Source of the DNA: Arbacia lixula
Taxonomy: Eukaryota > Echinodermata > Echinoidea > Arbacioida > Arbaciidae
Reading direction: 5' to 3'
Assembly (NCBI GenBank): GCA_963669155.1
Contig: OZ022597.1
Location: 11,568,225-11,632,224 of the forward strand
DNA: 64,000 nt
The position numbers and the translations under genes were made by a program. Of this stretch, positions 2,757-53,249 are shown piece after piece. Positions within the stretch are counted from its first letter, which is position 1, and each line of letters begins with the position of its first letter. Below the pieces are notes generated by a model. That model saw only the letters and a program-made list of their open reading frames with translations. It was not told where the DNA came from and made no database searches.

Positions 2757-4016
2757 AGATTGTCCGTCCCTTTTGCAAGCTTAAAATTTGAAATCGTCTA
2801 TCCATGGACCTATCATGGATGGACTGCGCTCGGATAGACTTCCTTTGATCCATGATGACCACCGCCTCATAAAAATTCAAGACATTCAGGTGTTTTAAAC
2901 AATACGCTGTATTTCTAATGAGGCAGTGCCTTCCTCTGAATAACAAAAGAAAATCTGTTTTGAGAAATATGTCAACCGTTCAGCCTTCGCTGGGAGTTCA
3001 TAGCTGATCTTATTACACACACTGGGAATTAGTTTGGAGGTGAGCGAAGGGAAATTTTGATAAAATTGTAGAAAGAATTTGGTCCGTAACGTTTTCGGAC
3101 ATCTCCGGACACGAAATCGACGTTGTTTCCATGGAAGGTGAAACACTCAATAAACGATTTACAAGATATTTGTAAGGAAATATGATTGCCCAATGTGCGA
3201 TATTGAGGCATTTTTCTGACATGTTTTCTACAGTATTCTTGATTTATCACAAAAACGACGCAACAATATAATCTGAAATTCACAGATTCGTATCATTATA
3301 AGATGTACTACTACTGCACATGTACTTCAGTACATGAAGTGGTTCTGAAATCTTCTGCGCATGCAGATTGTATATTCCTCTAAATGCATCCAATATTTGT
3401 CTTGCATATTTGGCGGCGGTCATCACTGGATCAAAGAACCAAACGCGTAAAATATTCTATTGTGGTATCAATGATCGCGACTGGTATATGAATAAATTAC
3501 TCTTCGTTCCGACTCCAGTTCTAACACCTTCCTGGTCTATCACGATCGTAAATTGAAGAAAGTGTGATTCAAGACCATTTCTAAGAATATAGCATGTTGA
3601 AGCTTTCTGTATATGTAAACAATTTCAGCCGTTAAATTTCAAACCGACTTTTTTCGTACCACGAAAAAAGTATTAGTCTTTGTTACAGTATCTATGTGGT
3701 TATTATGCGTCTGTGAAATCCTAATTTTATGAGTAACTATCAAACTTTGGAGATGATTCCTTCCATAGAACATTTTTTTTTCATAATGCGTTTTATAATT
3801 TAATAAACAGATTAATCAATAAAACAGATATTTCAACACAAACTGCTAAGAGCCTGAGGTAAAGACTATTAATCAGACGTTGTTTACGTGCATTGTTTGA
3901 ATTTTACTTTACGTATCAGTTTCAAATTGTGAATATAGAGCTTGCTAACACTTCTCTATATGTTTTGCCAATGTTTTGATGGTTTTGTGGTGATCTGAAA
4001 AAGGGACTGGCTGTCT
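2757..4016 (+). mobile_element. Long form of TTAA MITE family 1 (Kolobok-like)
   Basis: It is flanked by TTAA at 2753-2756 and 4017-4020. It begins AGATTGTCCGTCCCTTTTGC and ends with the imperfect inverted match, which read outward begins AGACAGCCAGTCCCTTTT. Copy B has the empty site (GATTAACCATTTG near 15743), so the insertion and its TTAA target duplication can be seen. Unlike the other copies (about 520 bp), this one has about 735 extra bp from 2803 to 3537. The extra block is bounded by a repeated GTCTATC. Short ORFs in the block match nothing I recognise. Confidence 0.85.
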
Positions 4017-5082
4017 TTAACCATTTGTGAAATGAAACCTTTGTAGTACACATGCACAATGTACAAGTAAGTTAAGTACATGTACGTAACAAGTTGATTT
4101 TAATCAAAAACTTTTAATATGAGCAAATTGGCAGAGACTGATTTGAAGAATCTCAAACATTAGCCAATCTGTTACTGCTTTGTCTGTACTCAAATGATTA
4201 TTATGGTTCTCATTAGAGAGGGTTCCTGTGGTAGAAATTCCTTTTGCAATTCAAGGACTACTGTCGATTTGTTTTATGATTCAAACACAGATGTTTATGA
4301 CATTTGTAAGTACTGCAATCTAAATCTGTATGTTGAGTTGACCTTGATGAATGTGACATGAACATGACTTGAAATTAATGGACCTGAAACACAAAGTCTC
4401 CTTTCTTTTGATCTACCTATAACTAATTAACTACCTGTTCATTGTTTAGAGCACTTTATGTGCACCAGAACATGATTACATTTTCAATGAACAAAAAATG
4501 TAGTGAAGGTATTCCTACATGCCTTGCAGAAGTTGCTGTACATAAAGTTATCTCTCAGAAAACCTCTTCCCAAATAATATCCTGCCTCCCACTCTTTCCA
4601 TTTGATTTGTTTTCTTTTCTTTTCTCATGTTTGCATTGAGTCCTGATTTGAAAGCAGGTACATGCACATTTCATAGAGTTGTTTATTACAAATTTGTATG
4701 ATAAAGAATCAAATCCTTTTCCAAGGGGTATATGGTAAAAATGTGTGGTTTGAAGTTATGAAAATTTGCATTATTAAGAATCAAGTCCTACTAAGGAAAA
4801 CATTGTAAACAATATAAAGGTATATTTCTGACAACAAGATTGACAATATTCGTGTGGAACATTTAGTATAGGGTGTGGCAAGATCTGAGTATTCAACAGG
4901 GCCCTGTTGCATAAAACTTACCATTGATGGTAACTATGCTACCAATGGCAACATCTATGGAAACCATGTATTTGATTGGCTGTCAAGCAGTGTTACCATT
5001 GTAGTTGTTCCCTTACATTGATCCTTTAAACTTTCCTTACCCTACTCCACGAGTGAACTCTAACTGTTTTTGTTCCTTCCAG

Positions 5083-5396: not shown

Positions 5397-6728
5397 GTAA
5401 ACCTTTCTTCAAGATCAATGTGTGGTTCTATTCTTACGTTTCCAACATAAGTATCTCCATTATGTAAGCCTACCAATTGAGTACCGAAGTGTATTGTCAT
5501 GCATTGTTATGCAGGTTTGTGGTTCTAAACGACATCACACAAGTTAGAGTTTCATTGGTCTGACATTGTCTAGCGGGCTAGTGTTAGGCACTCCCAGTGA
5601 CAGTCCCTGCTATGATCAGGGATGTATTAGGAAGGAGTAGAAACTCGAGCATAATACATTCAAACATCTGTATGGGTTCTAAAGCGTGCTCATGAATGTC
5701 AAAAGAATTCCATAATCATGACAATGCTTTGATGTTCCATGGGCCGAGCCGACATTTAGCTGATGTCAACTTGAAAAGAAATTTCTTTAATTTCCCATTT
5801 GTCTGTAGACGTTTTGTTTTTGACAAATTTGTTTGCAAACTATAAGGAAGTTAACGGCACATAATGACAGATCCTAATACTCTGCTTATGTTTCGAAAAG
5901 TATTGAGGAATCATTAAAAATCGGACATATAAGCTATTTGTATTACTTACAAAATTGACCAATTTCTTCACTTTCCGACATCTTGTGCATTTGGGAGATT
6001 CAACCACTCTCAAAATGATACATGTTTATTGAGCTGTGTATTATCATTAACGGCGTGTGTGTGTTTGCGTGAAGCAGAGATATTTAACTTGAAAAACTTG
6101 TTTATTTGTGTTTGCTGATACCTGTTGTGCTCATGGAAGTATTAATGCCATTAACAGAACGGGACAAGCGAAATGAGACTGTACATTTCTTTTGTTCTCT
6201 GTTGCCACACAATCATGTTCATAATTGTTCAAACACCTGAACAGCACCTGTTGAGAACACCATAACTTTTCAGCGGCTTGGCACATGGGTTCAAAGAAAG
6301 AAAGTTGCTTCATATCCTTCCATAACACGTCCCTGCTATGATCACTGCTGCTTGCTCTACCTTTGTACATAGTTTCAGAGCCAGTTGTCTTTATAACATG
6401 CTCAAACAAGAATGACGTCTCGCTCCGGTACTCTTTAGTATTGCAACTTGTGTACTTGGAAGAAAGGCTTCTAGGACAGCCACTGGCTGAGGCATGTTTT
6501 GTTGCAAAAAGTGTGGGTAACTGCAGTATATAAAATGTATTGTTTATGAATTACAATTGTATGCCCTATGCAAAGGTGCAGAAATAAAATGTTTTTTTTT
6601 TCATGAAGTAATGCATTATGCAACTTTGCAGAATTACATGTTTTGAAAATGTTGGAATCGGTAGAGATGCACATTCAGTAGTGGAGTTTTTTCCTGTTTA
6701 TGTTCACTTCATTTGCACACTGTATTAA

Positions 6729-7252
6729 AGATTGTCCGTCCCTTTTGCAAGCTTAAAATTTGAAATCGTCTCTCACGATCGTAAATTGAAGAAAGTGTGA
6801 TTCAAGACCATTTCTAAGAATATAGCATGTTGAAGCTTTCTGTATATGTAAACAATTTCAGCCGTTAAATTTCAAACCGACTTTTTTCGTACTACGAAAA
6901 AAGTATTAGTCTTTGTTACAGTATCTATGTTGTTATTATGCGCGTGTGAAATCCTAATTTTATGAGTAACTACCAAACTTTGGAAATGATTCCTTCCATA
7001 GAACATTTTTTTTCATAATGCGTTTTATAATTTAATAAACAGATTAATCAATAAAGCAGATATTTCAACACAAACTGCTAAGAGCCTGAGGTAAAGAAAG
7101 ACTATTAATCAGACGTTGTTTACGTGCATTATTTGAATTTTGCACTACGTATCAGTTTCAAATTGTGAATATAGAGCTTGCTAACACTTCTCTACATGTT
7201 TTGCCAATGTTTCGATGGTTTTGTGGTGATCTGAAAAAGGGACTGGCTGTCT
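6729..7252 (+). mobile_element. TTAA MITE family 1, short form (524 bp)
   Basis: It is flanked by TTAA at 6725-6728 and 7253-7256. Copy B keeps the empty site (CTATATTAATGGTGATG near 18553), where copy A has TTAA-element-TTAA followed by the same flank. Terminal inverted repeats read AGATTGTCCGTCCCTTTT and AGACAGCCAGTCCCTTTT outward. There is no coding capacity. Purine-rich AGA termini with TTAA fit Kolobok better than piggyBac, whose ends usually start CCC or CCT. Confidence 0.88.
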
Positions 7253-7256
7253 TTAA

Positions 7257-41156: not shown

Positions 41157-41251
41157 TGTAATGCGGCTGATCTGACTGCATGGGTATCGAAACAAAAACA
41201 TGCACGGATGATGCACTGACAGAATATTCCCACAGTCTGACAATACCTTAA

Positions 41252-41772
41252 AGATTGTCCGTCCCTTTTGCAAGCTTAAAATTTGAAATCGTCTATCACG
41301 ATCGTAAATTGAAGAAAGTGTGATTCAAGACCATTTCTAAGAATGTAGCATGTTGAAGCTTTCTGTATATGTAAAAAAATTTCAGCCGTTAAATTTCAAA
41401 CCGACTTTTTTCGTACTACGAAAAAAGTATTAGTCTTTGTTACAGTATCTATGTGGTTATTATGCTTGTGTGAAATCCTAATTTTATGAGTAACTACCAA
41501 ACTTTGGAGATGATTCCTTCCATAGAACATTTTTTTTCATAATGCGTTTTATAATTTGATAAGCAGATTAATCAATAAAGCAGATATTTCAACACAAACT
41601 GCTAAGAGCCTGAGGTAAAGACTATTAATCAGACGTTGTTTACGTGCATTATTTGAATTTTACACTACGTATCAGTTTCAAATTGTGAATATAGAGCTTG
41701 CTAACACTTCTCTACATGTTTTGCCAATGTTTCGATGGTTTTGTGGTGATCTGAAAAAGGGACTGGCTGTCT
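41252..41772 (+). mobile_element. TTAA MITE family 1, short form (521 bp)
   Basis: TTAA at 41248-41251 and 41773-41776. Same ends and interior as 6729-7252, in the same orientation, inside MICAL intron 1. It shows how the split copy at 48140/52658 looked before the piggyBac insertion. Confidence 0.88.
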
Positions 41773-41945
41773 TTAAGGTCAGGCTCTCTCTTCTACATAT
41801 GTACATGTACCTCCCAAGATGAAAGGGAACATGGCATTCTTCTATGCTGCCACTGTGAGAAGAATGGATGGGGGTGTGGGTGGGGGTGGGGTCACCCCTG
41901 CTTGTCCCACACCCAAGCTTTCTATTTTGTGTCTGATTGTATACC

Positions 41946-46769: not shown

Positions 46770-48135
46770 ATTCAGTTCCCCTGTTCTTATGCCTCCGCAA
46801 CAAAGTTGCCAGAGGCATTATGTTCCTGAATTGTCTGTCCGTCTGTATGTCCGTCCAAACCCGTTTAGGCAAATAACTCAACAAAATTATAAAGAGGTGA
46901 AAGGTTAAAGGTCACAGGTCAAGGTCAAATTCTTAAATGCACTTTTGCACATACTGTAACTCCAGAAATATCAAACCAAACTTCAACAAATTGTTGACTT
47001 AAGGTGAAATGCTTTCGGTCTGAGCCACAGTAGTGTGGACTTTGCTGCATGTTTTTGTGAAATGCTGGAACAATGAAGTTGTTCCTGTTTTTGTTGGAGA
47101 CTTAGAGCTTGTATTAATGCTCATTGAGTAAACAGGGATGTTGGCTGTGTTTTCTATGAAAGCTGTGTCACTCTGCACATTGAGCCCTCTTAATTAATCA
47201 AATATTATTCCAAGTGAAGTGAAACTTGGTAGCTGCAGTACTGACCTTATTTTTTCTTAATGTATTGTTTTATGTACGTACATGTACAGTGTACTTGTAA
47301 AAACATTTTTTTTTAGACTTTTGCTTCTTTTTGATTTTTTTTTTCTGTGAGTGATCGTTGTCATGGCTTCTTTTTGTCACGGCTCTACATGAATGATACC
47401 ATGTGATAGCGACACATGCAATATCTGACTCATCTCTTCAACCTTGTACAAAAAACACAGTAATTTCCTAGGTGATATACTATTTATTATTGATTTCCTT
47501 GTTGGTGTGTTTGACTCTCCATTGTGCGTGTACTTATGTCATACTTTTTCTCTATTTCCATGCTTCCCATAATGTGCATAAAAAATTTACATTATTATTC
47601 TGATGCACAATGGCACAATGAAAGACAATGGCGAGAGCACCTAGAGGTATCCCTTGCGTTAGAGTTAAAGAACTATAGGGTTCCCTTTTGCAGGTCAAAA
47701 AGAATTGTTTTTGTAAAAAAAACACAGAAAATGGAAGAAGATGCTCTATTAAAACTTTCCTTCAAATGATAGAACTGGAGACTCACTTTATTGACGAAAT
47801 TGTACCGATCAGTAAATTTTGACGTTTTGGGCGGGTCGTCTGAAACATAGTAGCCTAGAGACTGGAGACTGCTGTGCGCTGTGATCCACATCAGTCCGCT
47901 CAAAGTGCATGCGTTCAATGGGAGCCATGCCCGCATCGTGCGCTGAGAGGGACAATACGATTATGAATGTAAACTGCTCGCTGCGGTTCAAATATAAACA
48001 AGGATGGTTTTTCACTTTTCCTGAAAATGTTTGTGAAGCTATACTGTGTGATTGAAATTTCATACACGATATTGCTACGGTGTACTTCTTATTCCTGTCG
48101 AGTTTCATGATATTTGCAAATGGGACACCCTGTCT
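46770..48135. other. MICAL intron 2, unassigned
   Basis: AT-rich, with no exon seen. The last ~100 bp (GTACACTTCTTATTCC ... GGGACACCCTGTCTTTAA) resembles the end of another TTAA element related to 35712-35775 and directly abuts the family-1 MITE. Confidence 0.45.
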
Positions 48136-49398
48136 TTAAAGACAGCCCATTCCTTTTTCAGATCACCACAAAACTATCGAAACATTGGCAAAACATATAG
48201 AGAAGTGTTAGCAAGCTCTATATTCACAATTTGAAACTGATACGTAGTGCAAAATTCAAATAATGCACGTAAACAACGTTTGATTAATAGTCTTTTCCTC
48301 AGGCTCTTAGCACTTTGTGTTGAAATATCTGCTTTATTGATTAATCTGTTTATTAACCCTCTCTTGTTGCATACACCATAGGAGGAAACACATACAAAAT
48401 CACACATACAATTGAAATTGATATTTGAGAATGAATTTATTGATCAATATCAATGTGTCATATATGAATCAAAAGCTCAGAAGTTGAACTTTGACATGGT
48501 GAAAAAAAAATGTAAATAATGTTCAAATTTATGCAGATATCAGCTAATTAATATTCATGAGATTTTTTCCAAATATACAAATTTGTATGATTTTTCAGAT
48601 GTAATACATTATATCACACCTTTATCTATAATCAAAACTTACCAAACTTCTCAATAAGAACAACTAGGTATCTTGAAACAATTCTGTAAAAAAAAAATCA
48701 AAATGACATCTATATGTATTTTTTTATGAATATATTAAAAAAAAATGCAATTATTCATAAATTTGTCAATAATTTGCATTTTCATTCCTTCAGACTTCCC
48801 TTCATAGTTGCAACTGCAATTTTCCTGCAATGACAACACACAGTATGAGAAACAAATCTCCTCTGCTATTCTAATCATTAGGGAAAATAAAGAAATGATT
48901 AAAATATGCAAATGAGCAGTATGAATATTCATAACGCAGAACAATAAAATACATAAGAAATTCATGTTTTTACCTAAATAAATGGATAGAATCCAGGTAA
49001 ATGTACTTTTTGAAACATAAAGTTGAAGCAATACATGTAGACAGTCTGAAATATTACATTTACTGTTTTATAGACAATTAAATTTATAATTAGTTAGTCT
49101 TTTGCCAGCCCCATGTACATATTTGAAGTATACATTGAAATACAAAATTAAGATTTGTCATGATTTTCTGCAAAAAAAATCTTACACAACATTGCACATT
49201 TATCTTGAACACATAATTACATATGCATCTTACAGTAAAATTCAAATGCTAAATGATAAAGTAATTTGAAATATAATACAGGGAAACATTTCCTGAACAT
49301 AAACATGAAATTGTAAAATGATACATTGCAAACTTACCTGCGAGGACTGCCCAATACGAGAGCTACAGATCGAGTGATGCATGCACTCAATACATGAC

Positions 49399-51046
49399 TT
49401 ATTTTCTGTACTTTTCGAATCTCTTATCCGTGTGGAAGTCATGAAAACAATTCCTACTAGTAACACACAAATAGACTTCACACACCTTACATTTGGTTCT
49501 GCATTTGTTTGCATTGCTACTACCCTTCTCACCGTTCATGTAACACACCTTACAAGTCCGCCGACAGTCATCCACTATGGGAAGATGCATTGGAGCATCA
49601 TCAGACCTACCAGCCCTAGGAGCAGCAGGTTCAGCCCTAGCTTTCGGATGTCTGTACAACGGAGTTGGATCACCCTTGTCAATACCACCCAGTTGCATCA
49701 AGAGCTCTTCCCTGAACTGCCGCTGCCCGTAGTGGGGCTGGCGCTGAAACTCGGGTCTATTGGAATGCAGTGCCTTCATTTCACAAAAGAGAATGTAGGA
49801 ATTGACGACAGCTATGTCAAGGAAATGAAAGAACAATGTCTTCCAGAACTTATTGGTTTTCCTCAAAATATTATAGTTCCCTATTAGCTGATCGGAGCGA
49901 TCAACACCCCCCATAGACTGATTGTAGTCATGAATAGCTTGAGGCTGATTGACAACGATCTTTTGGTGCCTACCACCCACCCTTGAATTTCTTTCAGTTT
50001 TCGTGCAGGCACTACCAGAATGGAAGGTGGACATAACACTTACTACTCTATTGTCCTTCCATTGAATCACAGCACTGTCCCCATCTCTAACCCACCTAAC
50101 ATCTCCCCTTGCTGATTCTTTCTCCCATTTCTTGCTGGTGTCTCTGAACACCTTTAGGAAGCCCTTTCTATTGCTCCTCACAGTGCCACAAGCAAAAATA
50201 CGCTTCTTCTTCAAGTCTGTGAAGAGTTGACTTGAGGTGTAGAAATTGTCAACAAATAATTTGTACCCTTGGTTTTGAAGGTTCTCACAAAGCTGCATCA
50301 CCACATCATAACCTAAGCCGTGTTTACTTGAAACAGTCCTCTTTCCAACATATACATCAAAATCATAAGTGTATGCGTTTGATGAATCAGCTACCACCCA
50401 CAACTTGAAACCCCACTTTGTTGGTTTATCCCTGATGTACTGAATAAATGAAAACCTCCCCTTTGACTTTACCATCCTTTCATCTATGCTAATGTTCTCC
50501 CTTGGTTTGTACAACCCTTTACAAGTCTTCTTCATGTGATCAAGAAGGTACCGAACCTTACAGAGTGGATCATCTGCAGCTTCATTGTTAGGATCTGCAA
50601 TCTTCAAGAAACAAAAAATCCCTTTCAACCTATCTTTCGGCATAAATGCCCTTGCCCATGAGCCATGATACGGCGCAGAAGTGCAGTAGAGGGAATTAAT
50701 ATCAGGAAAGTGTACAAGCCCCATGTAAATTAGAAGTCCACACAGCTGTTCAAGTTCTTTCACCCCAATTTTGTTCCACTCGCCAGCAGCCGTGGCATAG
50801 GATGTTTTTTCGTGGATATGCTGGCGTGCATATTCATTTGTGAACATGCAGATCTGCCCCAAAACTTCAATAGTAAAGAAGAGCCGAAAAAAGTCTATAG
50901 CTCTCGACAATTTGGAGACAGTCCCACGAGTCTTGATTTCCTTCAGGATGATGCCGGGAGTTTCCTTCGGAGTAAACTTGAGGTCGTTCTTCGAGGGCAT
51001 CCCGTCATCCTCGTCATCGTAGCCTTGCCAGGTAGAGGTAGAATTC
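49399..51046 (-). CDS. piggyBac transposase, exon 2 (catalytic part and C-terminus)
   Basis: Cut-and-paste transposase with a DDE/D fold (DDE_Tnp_1_7 family), expected in the nucleus. The exon follows a TTTCAATATCACAG acceptor and runs to the stop at 49399. Numbering the spliced 622-aa protein, the catalytic aspartates are D262 (in NISIDERM), D340 (in YKLFVDNFY) and D456 (in SMGGVDRSDQ), matching the order in insect piggyBac. The KPTKWGFKLW motif is present. The C-terminus is a Cys/His-rich zinc domain (CRRTCKVC ... CKVC ... CVTSRNCFHDFH) that in this family binds the terminal repeats. No internal stop or frameshift. Length fits family members of about 550-650 aa. Confidence 0.93.
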
Positions 51047-51797
51047 CTGTGATATTGAAAAATGAAAATATATCACAAATGTAATGGGAAAATACTGATA
51101 ACAAAATAGTATCAATAACTTCAAAGCCAATGTTCTGTGATTGAATTATAAAATAATTTTTAAAAGTGTAAAAAAAAGTGTAAAAAAAAGTGCCTGGTAG
51201 AAAGACTACACACACTTGATTTATAATCCATACTGAATAAAATAGCTCTAAATATGCCAAAAATATAATGACAGTATATCGAATTATTCACTATAGTCAC
51301 AACAATCATGAAAGAAAGACGATTAGGGTCAACATTCCTATGGCCATGCATGACATGATGGCCTTTCAGGCTACAGGCTGTCAAAATTTTGAATCAAAAC
51401 ATCACTCACGATTTGTGGAGGAATTCTGATGAAAAAATGGTGTCCTATCACTAAAAATGTTAAGAATTATCTTTTTTGTCATGCTTTCATAATTATTCAC
51501 CACGAAATAAGGCATAAATATTTTTATTTTTTTTTTCAAACCCATACAAAGCCCGTAACCAAGGAAAAAAACACCCCTAGCAACGGCTTCAACCGCGTTT
51601 ACGTTTAAATGTCCGAGCACTTCCGGTTTCAGACCGAGCACTTCCGGTAACGTTTTTGGCACGGTTTGCTAATAAAACCGCAAGAATACACCACAAAATG
51701 CATAAAATGTGATTGAGAATAAAATTCCTTACGGAATTATGATACTGAATATTTTCTAGCGATGAATTTAGTGGCAAAAATTACGGGAGAAACTTAC

Positions 51798-52018
51798 CGC
51801 TTGGGTTGTTGTGGTGCACTGCTACATTGTGCACGCTTGCGTTTGCGTGGCTGGCCAGTTGATGTGCTGGCCTGCTCGGTGTCCGAAGCTGACAAATCGT
51901 CGCTAGAAATGGTCCAATCGGACCCAATATCTCCCGCCAGCATGCCATCTAGCACTGATTCTTCATCAGAATCAAGCATAGATAAGTCTTCATCGATGAA
52001 ATCATCCATGTTGATCAC
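51798..52018 (-). CDS. piggyBac transposase, exon 1 (acidic N-terminus)
   Basis: It begins MINMDDFIDEDLSMLDSDEE, an acidic region typical of piggyBac N-termini, and passes to a basic PRKRKR patch that may serve nuclear import. It ends CCCAAGCG followed by GTAAGT. The split codon CG+G restores Arg, and the frame continues into exon 2 (NSTSTWQGYDDEDDG). The intron of 751 bp (51047-51797) and exact phase match support the joined model of 622 residues. Confidence 0.85.
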
Positions 52019-53249
52019 AATTCAGTAGAATTCTGGTCAAATTGCAGTACGAAAATTGCGAGTCGCGTGAATGCTTTGCAATGCGTACATGCACAGTGAA
52101 CGAGTGCGGAAACTCATATCGCATCACGCGACCGATCGGAACGCACTTCGGTTAAACGGCCCGATGTTCTCCGAAGCTTGCCGGGTATGCCCATATTTGG
52201 GCATCAAAATAAAGCTGAATGAATTCTCTAGCCAATGATGTAAGACTCGGCAGGCTCCGATGTAAAACGAAGATACACGAAGCGATTGAAAGACTCGTAG
52301 TCTTTCAACCGGGCATATCGACCGGTAAAAGCTCCGATCGTTCTGTGCCAGTTAAATTATAAAACGCATTATGAAAAAAATTGTTCTATAGAAGGAATCA
52401 TCTCCAAAGTTTGGTAATTACTCATAAAATTAGGATTTCACACATGCATAATAACCACATAGACACTGTAACAAAGACTAATACTTTTTTCGTAGTACGA
52501 AAAAAGTCCGTTTGAAATTTAACGGCTGAAATTTTTTACATATACAGAAAGCTCCAAAATGCTATATTCTTAGAAATGGTCTTGAATCACACTTTCTTCA
52601 ATTTACAATCGTGATAGACGATTTCAAATTTTAAGCTTGCAAAAGGGACGGACAATCTTTTACTATGTACATCTGCAAAAGATCCACATACATGTACATA
52701 GAGAGAGACAGAGTGAAATCTGCATAGTCCAGCCCCTAGTGTACAAGGACTTTATTCTGTCTTCACAGCTTTCGCACAGTAATTCTCAGCAGAAACATGT
52801 CAGCTGTGATTGGAAAAGGGACTATAAATAGACCCGGGCAAATTTCATTTTGTTTCTCGTTTCTAGGGCAAACATCGGGTTGAGACTGCAAGTGAATGAC
52901 TCAGAGATGAAAAATGGCAGGGGATATTGTGGGTTTGATGGAGCCTACCGGTGTGCATAGTACAGTGTATGTATGTGGTCAGGGTCACCAGTGTGTGTAA
53001 ACCGCGTTGTGATCCTCTTTGTTTGCACCCCTCCTTTTGTTTTCCCTCACCCCCACATCTATTGTTATGATTGTGGAGGCTTAATTATCCACAGTGTGCC
53101 AAGTCACTCATGTGTCAAGTAGAGTTCTGTCAATAATATGTGTTCTATCATGGAAAACAATTATAGAAATATACATGCAGGGGGTTTGTAACATGCTTTA
53201 ATTATTTTAATATTTGAATCTTTTGATTGTGTTTCATAATGTGGTAAGA

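Follow-up and report, generated by a model that had tools for sequence, protein, structure and literature searches.

A recently amplified piggyBac element with unlike tips, nested in a TTAA-bounded repeat of Arbacia lixula

The piggyBac element found in a 64,000-nucleotide stretch of the Arbacia lixula genome (contig OZ022597.1 of GCA_963669155.1, positions 11,568,225 to 11,632,224; the whole stretch is called the window here, and coordinates are counted from its first letter) raises the question of how a transposon can spread when its two ends do not resemble each other. The element occupies 3995 bp (48357–52351), with its transposase gene on the minus strand. An earlier note on this DNA had placed it at a TTAA inside another TTAA-specific element, and TTAA target-site duplications are indeed read directly on its left (48353–48356) and right (52352–52355). 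Its ends are set by these flanking TTAA and by six other copies with the same ends, which together with the window copy are referred to as subfamily A. The 5′ tip (15 bp, 48357–48371, plus strand) starts with CCCT and is like the 5′ tip of L049, a divergent relative. The 3′ tip (14 bp, 52338–52351, minus strand) reads CTGG inward and matches the 5′ tip at 4 of 14 positions.

The same 4/14 match is seen in the six A copies that were read whole, and the seventh copy has the same tips. Assuming a match probability of 0.27 per base, four or more matches out of 14 have P = 0.55, which is the level of chance. Subfamily A thus lacks the terminal inverted repeats (TIRs) of the piggyBac superfamily, a feature that the earlier note had missed. 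The CCYT end motif, described as a hallmark which piggyBac transposition needs (PMC2872659), is present as CCCT at the 5′ end and is replaced by CTGG at the 3′ end. The TTAA target-site duplication of the superfamily is present in all seven A copies (7/7). The superfamily placement stands on the transposase, the TTAA and a TIR-bearing sister subfamily, here called subfamily B.

The earlier note had proposed looking for near-identical copies of the 4-kb element, and the seven copies answer this at different TTAA sites. The A 5′ tip with its TTAA (one position free) occurs without mismatch at 7 genomic places, and the A 3′ end with its TTAA at 7 exact places and at one more with a single mismatch; the exact 5′ and 3′ places pair by coordinates into the seven copies. 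Pairwise divergence among the six whole copies is 0.13–0.53%, and 40 of the variable columns are private to a single copy while 2 are shared. The 1400-bp flanks of different A copies have only one repeat in common, a miniature inverted-repeat transposable element (MITE) of family 1, and the two flanks of one copy resemble each other weakly. The seven copies at different TTAA sites and their low divergence support recent mobility. The window element is a young, probably autonomous piggyBac that entered an older MITE by ordinary cut-and-paste transposition.

Subfamily B provides the comparison for the unlike ends. Its 5′ tip with TTAA is found within 2 mismatches at 25 places. Among the 12 copies with both ends compared, the two tips match at 11 of 14 positions in eight, at 10 in one and at 9 in three; for the 11/14 match of the eight copies, P = 9e-5 with the same 0.27 per base. 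Subfamily B has true imperfect TIRs. Variation within these tips is also informative. At bp 9–14 the B 5′ tips read TGGTGT in L063 (similarly in L051) and CAGTGT in the others. Among the 3′ tips, TGGTGT is found in L037, L038 and L044, whose 5′ partners all read CAGTGT, and also in L058 and L060, and most others have CAGTGT. Three of the 12 tip pairs are mixed, and none was seen to carry TGGTGT at both ends. It appears that in B a change at the 5′ tip was followed by one at the 3′ tip, as would fit ends that need to resemble each other, and A would stand out as the exception. Eight of the 12 compared B copies are about 2.37–2.39 kb long (L016/L038, L020/L041, L022/L046, L024/L037, L025/L039, L026/L048, L027/L043 and L028/L040), a common internally deleted, non-autonomous form.

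The difference between the subfamilies is concentrated at the very ends. Across the tips of one A copy (C1) and one B copy (C18), 18 of 29 positions differ, while the neighbouring 200 positions of subterminal DNA hold 12 differences (Fisher P = 7e-12). A and B have the same spacing between the subterminal block and the TTAA, and the switch between the A and B tips spans 14–15 bp, about the symmetric footprint of the piggyBac structure. A hidden similarity of the tips was sought in 42 gapped comparisons of seven tips against shuffles, with inverted-in-place and direct-repeat forms included. No comparison of the A 3′ tip with the six other tips falls below P 0.01, and the A 5′ and 3′ tips tested against each other give P = 0.33 (inverted) and 0.39 (direct). 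Two candidates for the A 3′ tip were rejected: its top-scoring comparison, a direct likeness to the B 3′ tip that is striking to the eye (P = 0.05), and the one with its lowest P, a likeness to the 5′ tip of L049 (0.03), both of which fail over 42 comparisons.

The earlier note had also described an uninterrupted spliced transposase, and the frame is open as it claimed. Exon 1 (51798–52009, minus strand) begins with ATG, is open and ends at a GT donor. The intron (51047–51797, minus strand), predicted from the sequence, follows the GT-AG rule and runs from GTAAGT to CAG. Exon 2 with the stop codon (49399–51046, minus strand) encodes the PF13843 (DDE_Tnp_1_7) domain and a C-terminal Cys/His-rich region. 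The two exons (52009–51798 joined to 51046–49399) encode 619 amino acids with no internal stop. The protein matches PF13843 with E 1.9e-83 and the solved piggyBat and piggyBac transposases with phmmer E values of 2.8e-40 and 1.2e-26, respectively. Residues D259, D337 and D453 align to the matching aspartates of the solved transposases, so that the catalytic aspartate triad is in place. However, residue 368 of the window copy is leucine, where proline is found in the five other A copies read whole and in both aligned solved transposases. Because of this Leu368 the window copy, though uninterrupted, may be impaired.

Across the subfamily, the exon-2 frame (557 codons) is open in 5 of 7 A copies. 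Of the remaining two, one has its coding match split by about 0.7 kb, and the other is frameshifted and carries D337N. The A and B transposases are 91% identical in exon 2, and their ratio of nonsynonymous to synonymous divergence (dN/dS) is about 0.36 (0.037/0.105 and 0.048/0.135), so the transposase has evolved under constraint.

How could two unlike tips come to stand on one element? A and B appear to exchange sequence by gene conversion or recombination, since the B copy C8 (L019/L036) has a 510-bp tract, including exon 1, that is identical to A, while many sites of this tract are different in the B copy C18; outside it C8 and C18 are almost identical. Another stretch of 220 bp is identical to A in both B copies. 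A comparison of one A and one B copy with L049 gives a similar picture. Within the first 102 bp there are 13 A/B differences, at which L049 is A-like in 10 and B-like in 2, with 1 unresolved, while at the differences in bp 121–420 L049 agrees with A in 7 and with B in 9. This pattern fits an exchange of ends by recombination. In a quick tree built from the first 1000 bp of 21 sequences, A falls within B, while the bases close to the 5′ tip put it with L049.

With moderate confidence, we propose that subfamily A arose by recombination between lineages, which would have placed unlike tips on a nearly common body, and that its own transposase tolerates the odd 3′ tip. Co-resident piggyBac lineages with a near-common body but different tips would recombine or undergo gene conversion, and the 5′ tip of one lineage and the 3′ tip of another would end up on the shared body. 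The A transposase would then synapse the mismatched pair, with normal recognition of the CCCT 5′ tip, while it would read the 3′ end chiefly through subterminal sequence. A candidate for such sequence is a 19-bp palindrome at bp 26–44 of the 3′ end (52308–52326, minus strand), a putative site for the zinc-finger dimer, which is present in the A copy and in both B copies scanned; in the window copy one arm base is altered. In the piggyBac structure, a zinc-finger dimer sits on a 19-bp palindromic internal repeat at one end only (PMC7351741). Subterminal binding together with the fixed spacing from the TTAA could let the transposase set its active site at the TTAA. We infer from the copies that the transposase tolerates these ends; it would also be the protein that moves the element, with the palindrome as a putative binding site.

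Several points weigh against this proposal. In the piggyBac structure (PMC7351741), binding to the left-end repeats is two-fold symmetric over their first 16 bp, and the tolerance of an unlike tip is therefore unexpected. The argument from palindromes is weak: a second one of 29 bp, at bp 41–69 of the 3′ end (52283–52311, minus strand; 12-bp arms with 1 mismatch), was reported in the A copy scanned and not in the two B copies scanned, and in the first 110 bp of the A 5′ end only a weaker inverted repeat was found (bp 59–82, 7-bp arms, 1 mismatch). A donor of the A 3′ tip was not found except for L050, an older fragment of an A-type 3′ end with the 14-bp tip intact. Looser relatives of the A 5′ tip may exist elsewhere in the genome, as a loose pattern of it (up to 3 mismatches) has 627 places against 381 for a reversed control. 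The order of events is uncertain, since the tree and the bases near the 5′ tip place A differently; recombination blurs the tree, and it may be B whose 5′ tip is derived.

Among relatives outside B, paired ends give weak controls, except for one relative on C12. The ends of the C12 relative match at 13 of 16 positions, the highest score among 49 TTAA pairs and well ahead of the second (9). Those of the C14 relative match at 9 of 16, the best of 77 TTAA pairs with the next at 8, a weak result. The ends of L049 match at 8 of 14 (gapped P = 0.16), with a 3′ end that was set by eye and stops one base before the TTAA, and do not form a firm TIR control. For the C11 relative (L052–L054, C11:19886600–19895300), convincing ends were looked for and none were found. 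It is a lone relative with an open frame of 566 codons and 87% protein identity, whose non-coding DNA is 71–77% identical where it can be aligned; it may be an intact element of some age or a gene retained by the host.

Among the alternatives to a recombined pair of tips, the best placed, though still unlikely, is that the 3′ tip of A is captured flanking DNA, the real tip having been lost and the next TTAA having served as a pseudo-end. Such an origin would agree with a tip that is unlike all six others compared and that reads CTGG instead of CCYT. Yet a capture would rarely preserve the distance from subterminal block to TTAA exactly as in B, and the presence of the 14-bp tip in the older copy L050 means that any capture was not recent.

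Somewhat less probable is that another transposase recognises the odd tips and moves A in trans, its own transposase playing no part. Possible sources are numerous, with 81 genomic matches to exon 2 (26–100% identity), a count that covers the A and B copies and fragments as well. However, no other family with the A tip pair was found, as the 7 exact places of each tip all belong to A copies, and the retention of an open exon-2 frame in most of these copies also speaks against it. We give slightly less credit again to the idea that A transposes without TIRs because its unlike tips are read differently, either by one transposase in two binding modes or by a natural heterodimer of two co-resident transposase lineages that each recognise one tip; in that case recombination would be creating end pairs able to escape cross-mobilisation by the older non-autonomous relatives. 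It is quite improbable that the element is merely a piggyBac of the usual kind, with regular TIRs, that happens to lie in a MITE. The TTAA duplications, the PF13843 transposase and the CCCT 5′ tip are all as such an element should have them, but the chance-level match of the A ends against the strong match of the eight B copies refutes it as to the TIRs unless the ends are misplaced, and seven copies fix the ends. Spread of the seven copies by segmental duplication, which their very low divergence alone would suggest, is refuted by flanks that share only the MITE and by a TTAA pair of its own at each site.

At the insertion site of the window copy, the interrupted family-1 MITE lies on the minus strand in a left piece, TTAA included (48140–48356), and a right piece (52356–52658), both delimited by alignment with family copies. 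Its own duplication is TTAA on the left (48136–48139), common to the neighbouring repeat, and a decayed TTTA on the right (52659–52662), seen by direct reading and by alignment; the aligned untruncated copies of the family have TTAA at both ends with this one exception. When the flanks are joined by script with one TTAA kept, they give 528 bp including both MITE duplications, with 88.6–95.8% identity to 10 other large family copies. The earlier claims that taking the element out of the sequence restores the MITE, and that the MITE came first and the piggyBac later, both hold. The intact MITE at 41252–41772, which had been offered as the pre-insertion sequence, does not serve as such. Among the 11 aligned MITE copies besides the interrupted one, the target site is TTAA in 9 and TCAA in 2, and this copy is one of the latter. 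The family-1 MITE at 6727–7256 (minus strand), which copy alignment shows to have the target TTAA, is therefore the better model of the empty site. In a search for a second haplotype or an empty allele, the left flank gave only one full-length match among the best 40 of 5656 candidates, so that neither was seen for this flank.

Kolobok elements are described as duplicating TTAA and as having 5′-RR and YY-3′ termini (PMC9587614). Since the host MITE has AG…CT termini of this form together with TTAA duplications, it is best read as Kolobok-type, that is, of a superfamily different from piggyBac though likewise TTAA-using. The nesting is confirmed, though not unusual. It is expected here because family 1 is represented in the window by 4 large MITEs, one of them the host, and by a 48-bp fragment, and because TTAA occurs at five internal sites of the joined host MITE. 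The other family-1 copies and fragments in the window lie at 3535–4020 (truncated at one end), 6727–7256, 41250–41776 and 2755–2802. Adjoining the host, a second TTAA-bounded repeat, MITE X (47669–48135, plus strand), was recognized from repeat matches. The best 40 of 5656 candidates for it, itself aside, are 76–80% identical, and in the two of three other copies that aligned, the termini resemble those of family 1.

The unexpected part is that a coding piggyBac of recent amplification lacks TIRs, next to a TIR-bearing sister. A literature search for piggyBac elements without TIRs or with mismatched ends found no equal, most subscription papers being outside its reach. The piggyBac of T. ni and the piggyBat of Myotis are like subfamily A in their related DDD transposases and TTAA duplications, and asymmetrically organised ends have been reported for both (PMC7351741, PMC11707139, PMC13405395). 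Their ends are nevertheless described as TIRs, with the first 16 bp symmetrically bound in the piggyBac structure, whereas the tips of A are unrelated. Pokey of Daphnia is a piggyBac with frequent recombination between co-resident lineages; it differs in having 16-bp imperfect TIRs, and the recombination data set excluded the TIRs (PMC3575242).

TTAA elements without TIRs have already been described among non-autonomous ones (cited in PMC2872659). Microuli and MSITEs (Tu and Orphanidis 2001, cited in PMC2872659) are TTAA elements said to transpose without TIRs, a likeness to A, but they are non-autonomous and have subterminal inverted repeats, whereas A is full-length with a transposase and has a TIR-bearing sister. 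The coral CMITEs (Wang et al. 2010, PMC2872659) are TTAA elements in which the TIRs vary more from family to family than the interior does, and one of them, CMITE-IN, is likened there to elements with subterminal repeats but without TIRs. They differ from A in being short and non-autonomous, and the CMITE families retain CCYT, unlike the A 3′ end.

These observations bear on how piggyBac elements are counted and on how their ends evolve. A survey of beetles, for example, counts piggyBac elements bounded by identifiable TIRs (PMC12732532), and surveys defined in this way could miss mobile elements without TIRs. With A and B in one genome and with nearly the same body, the two subfamilies form a natural pair in which to learn what bases of the tips are read by a piggyBac transposase, and they also bear on how end specificity changes.

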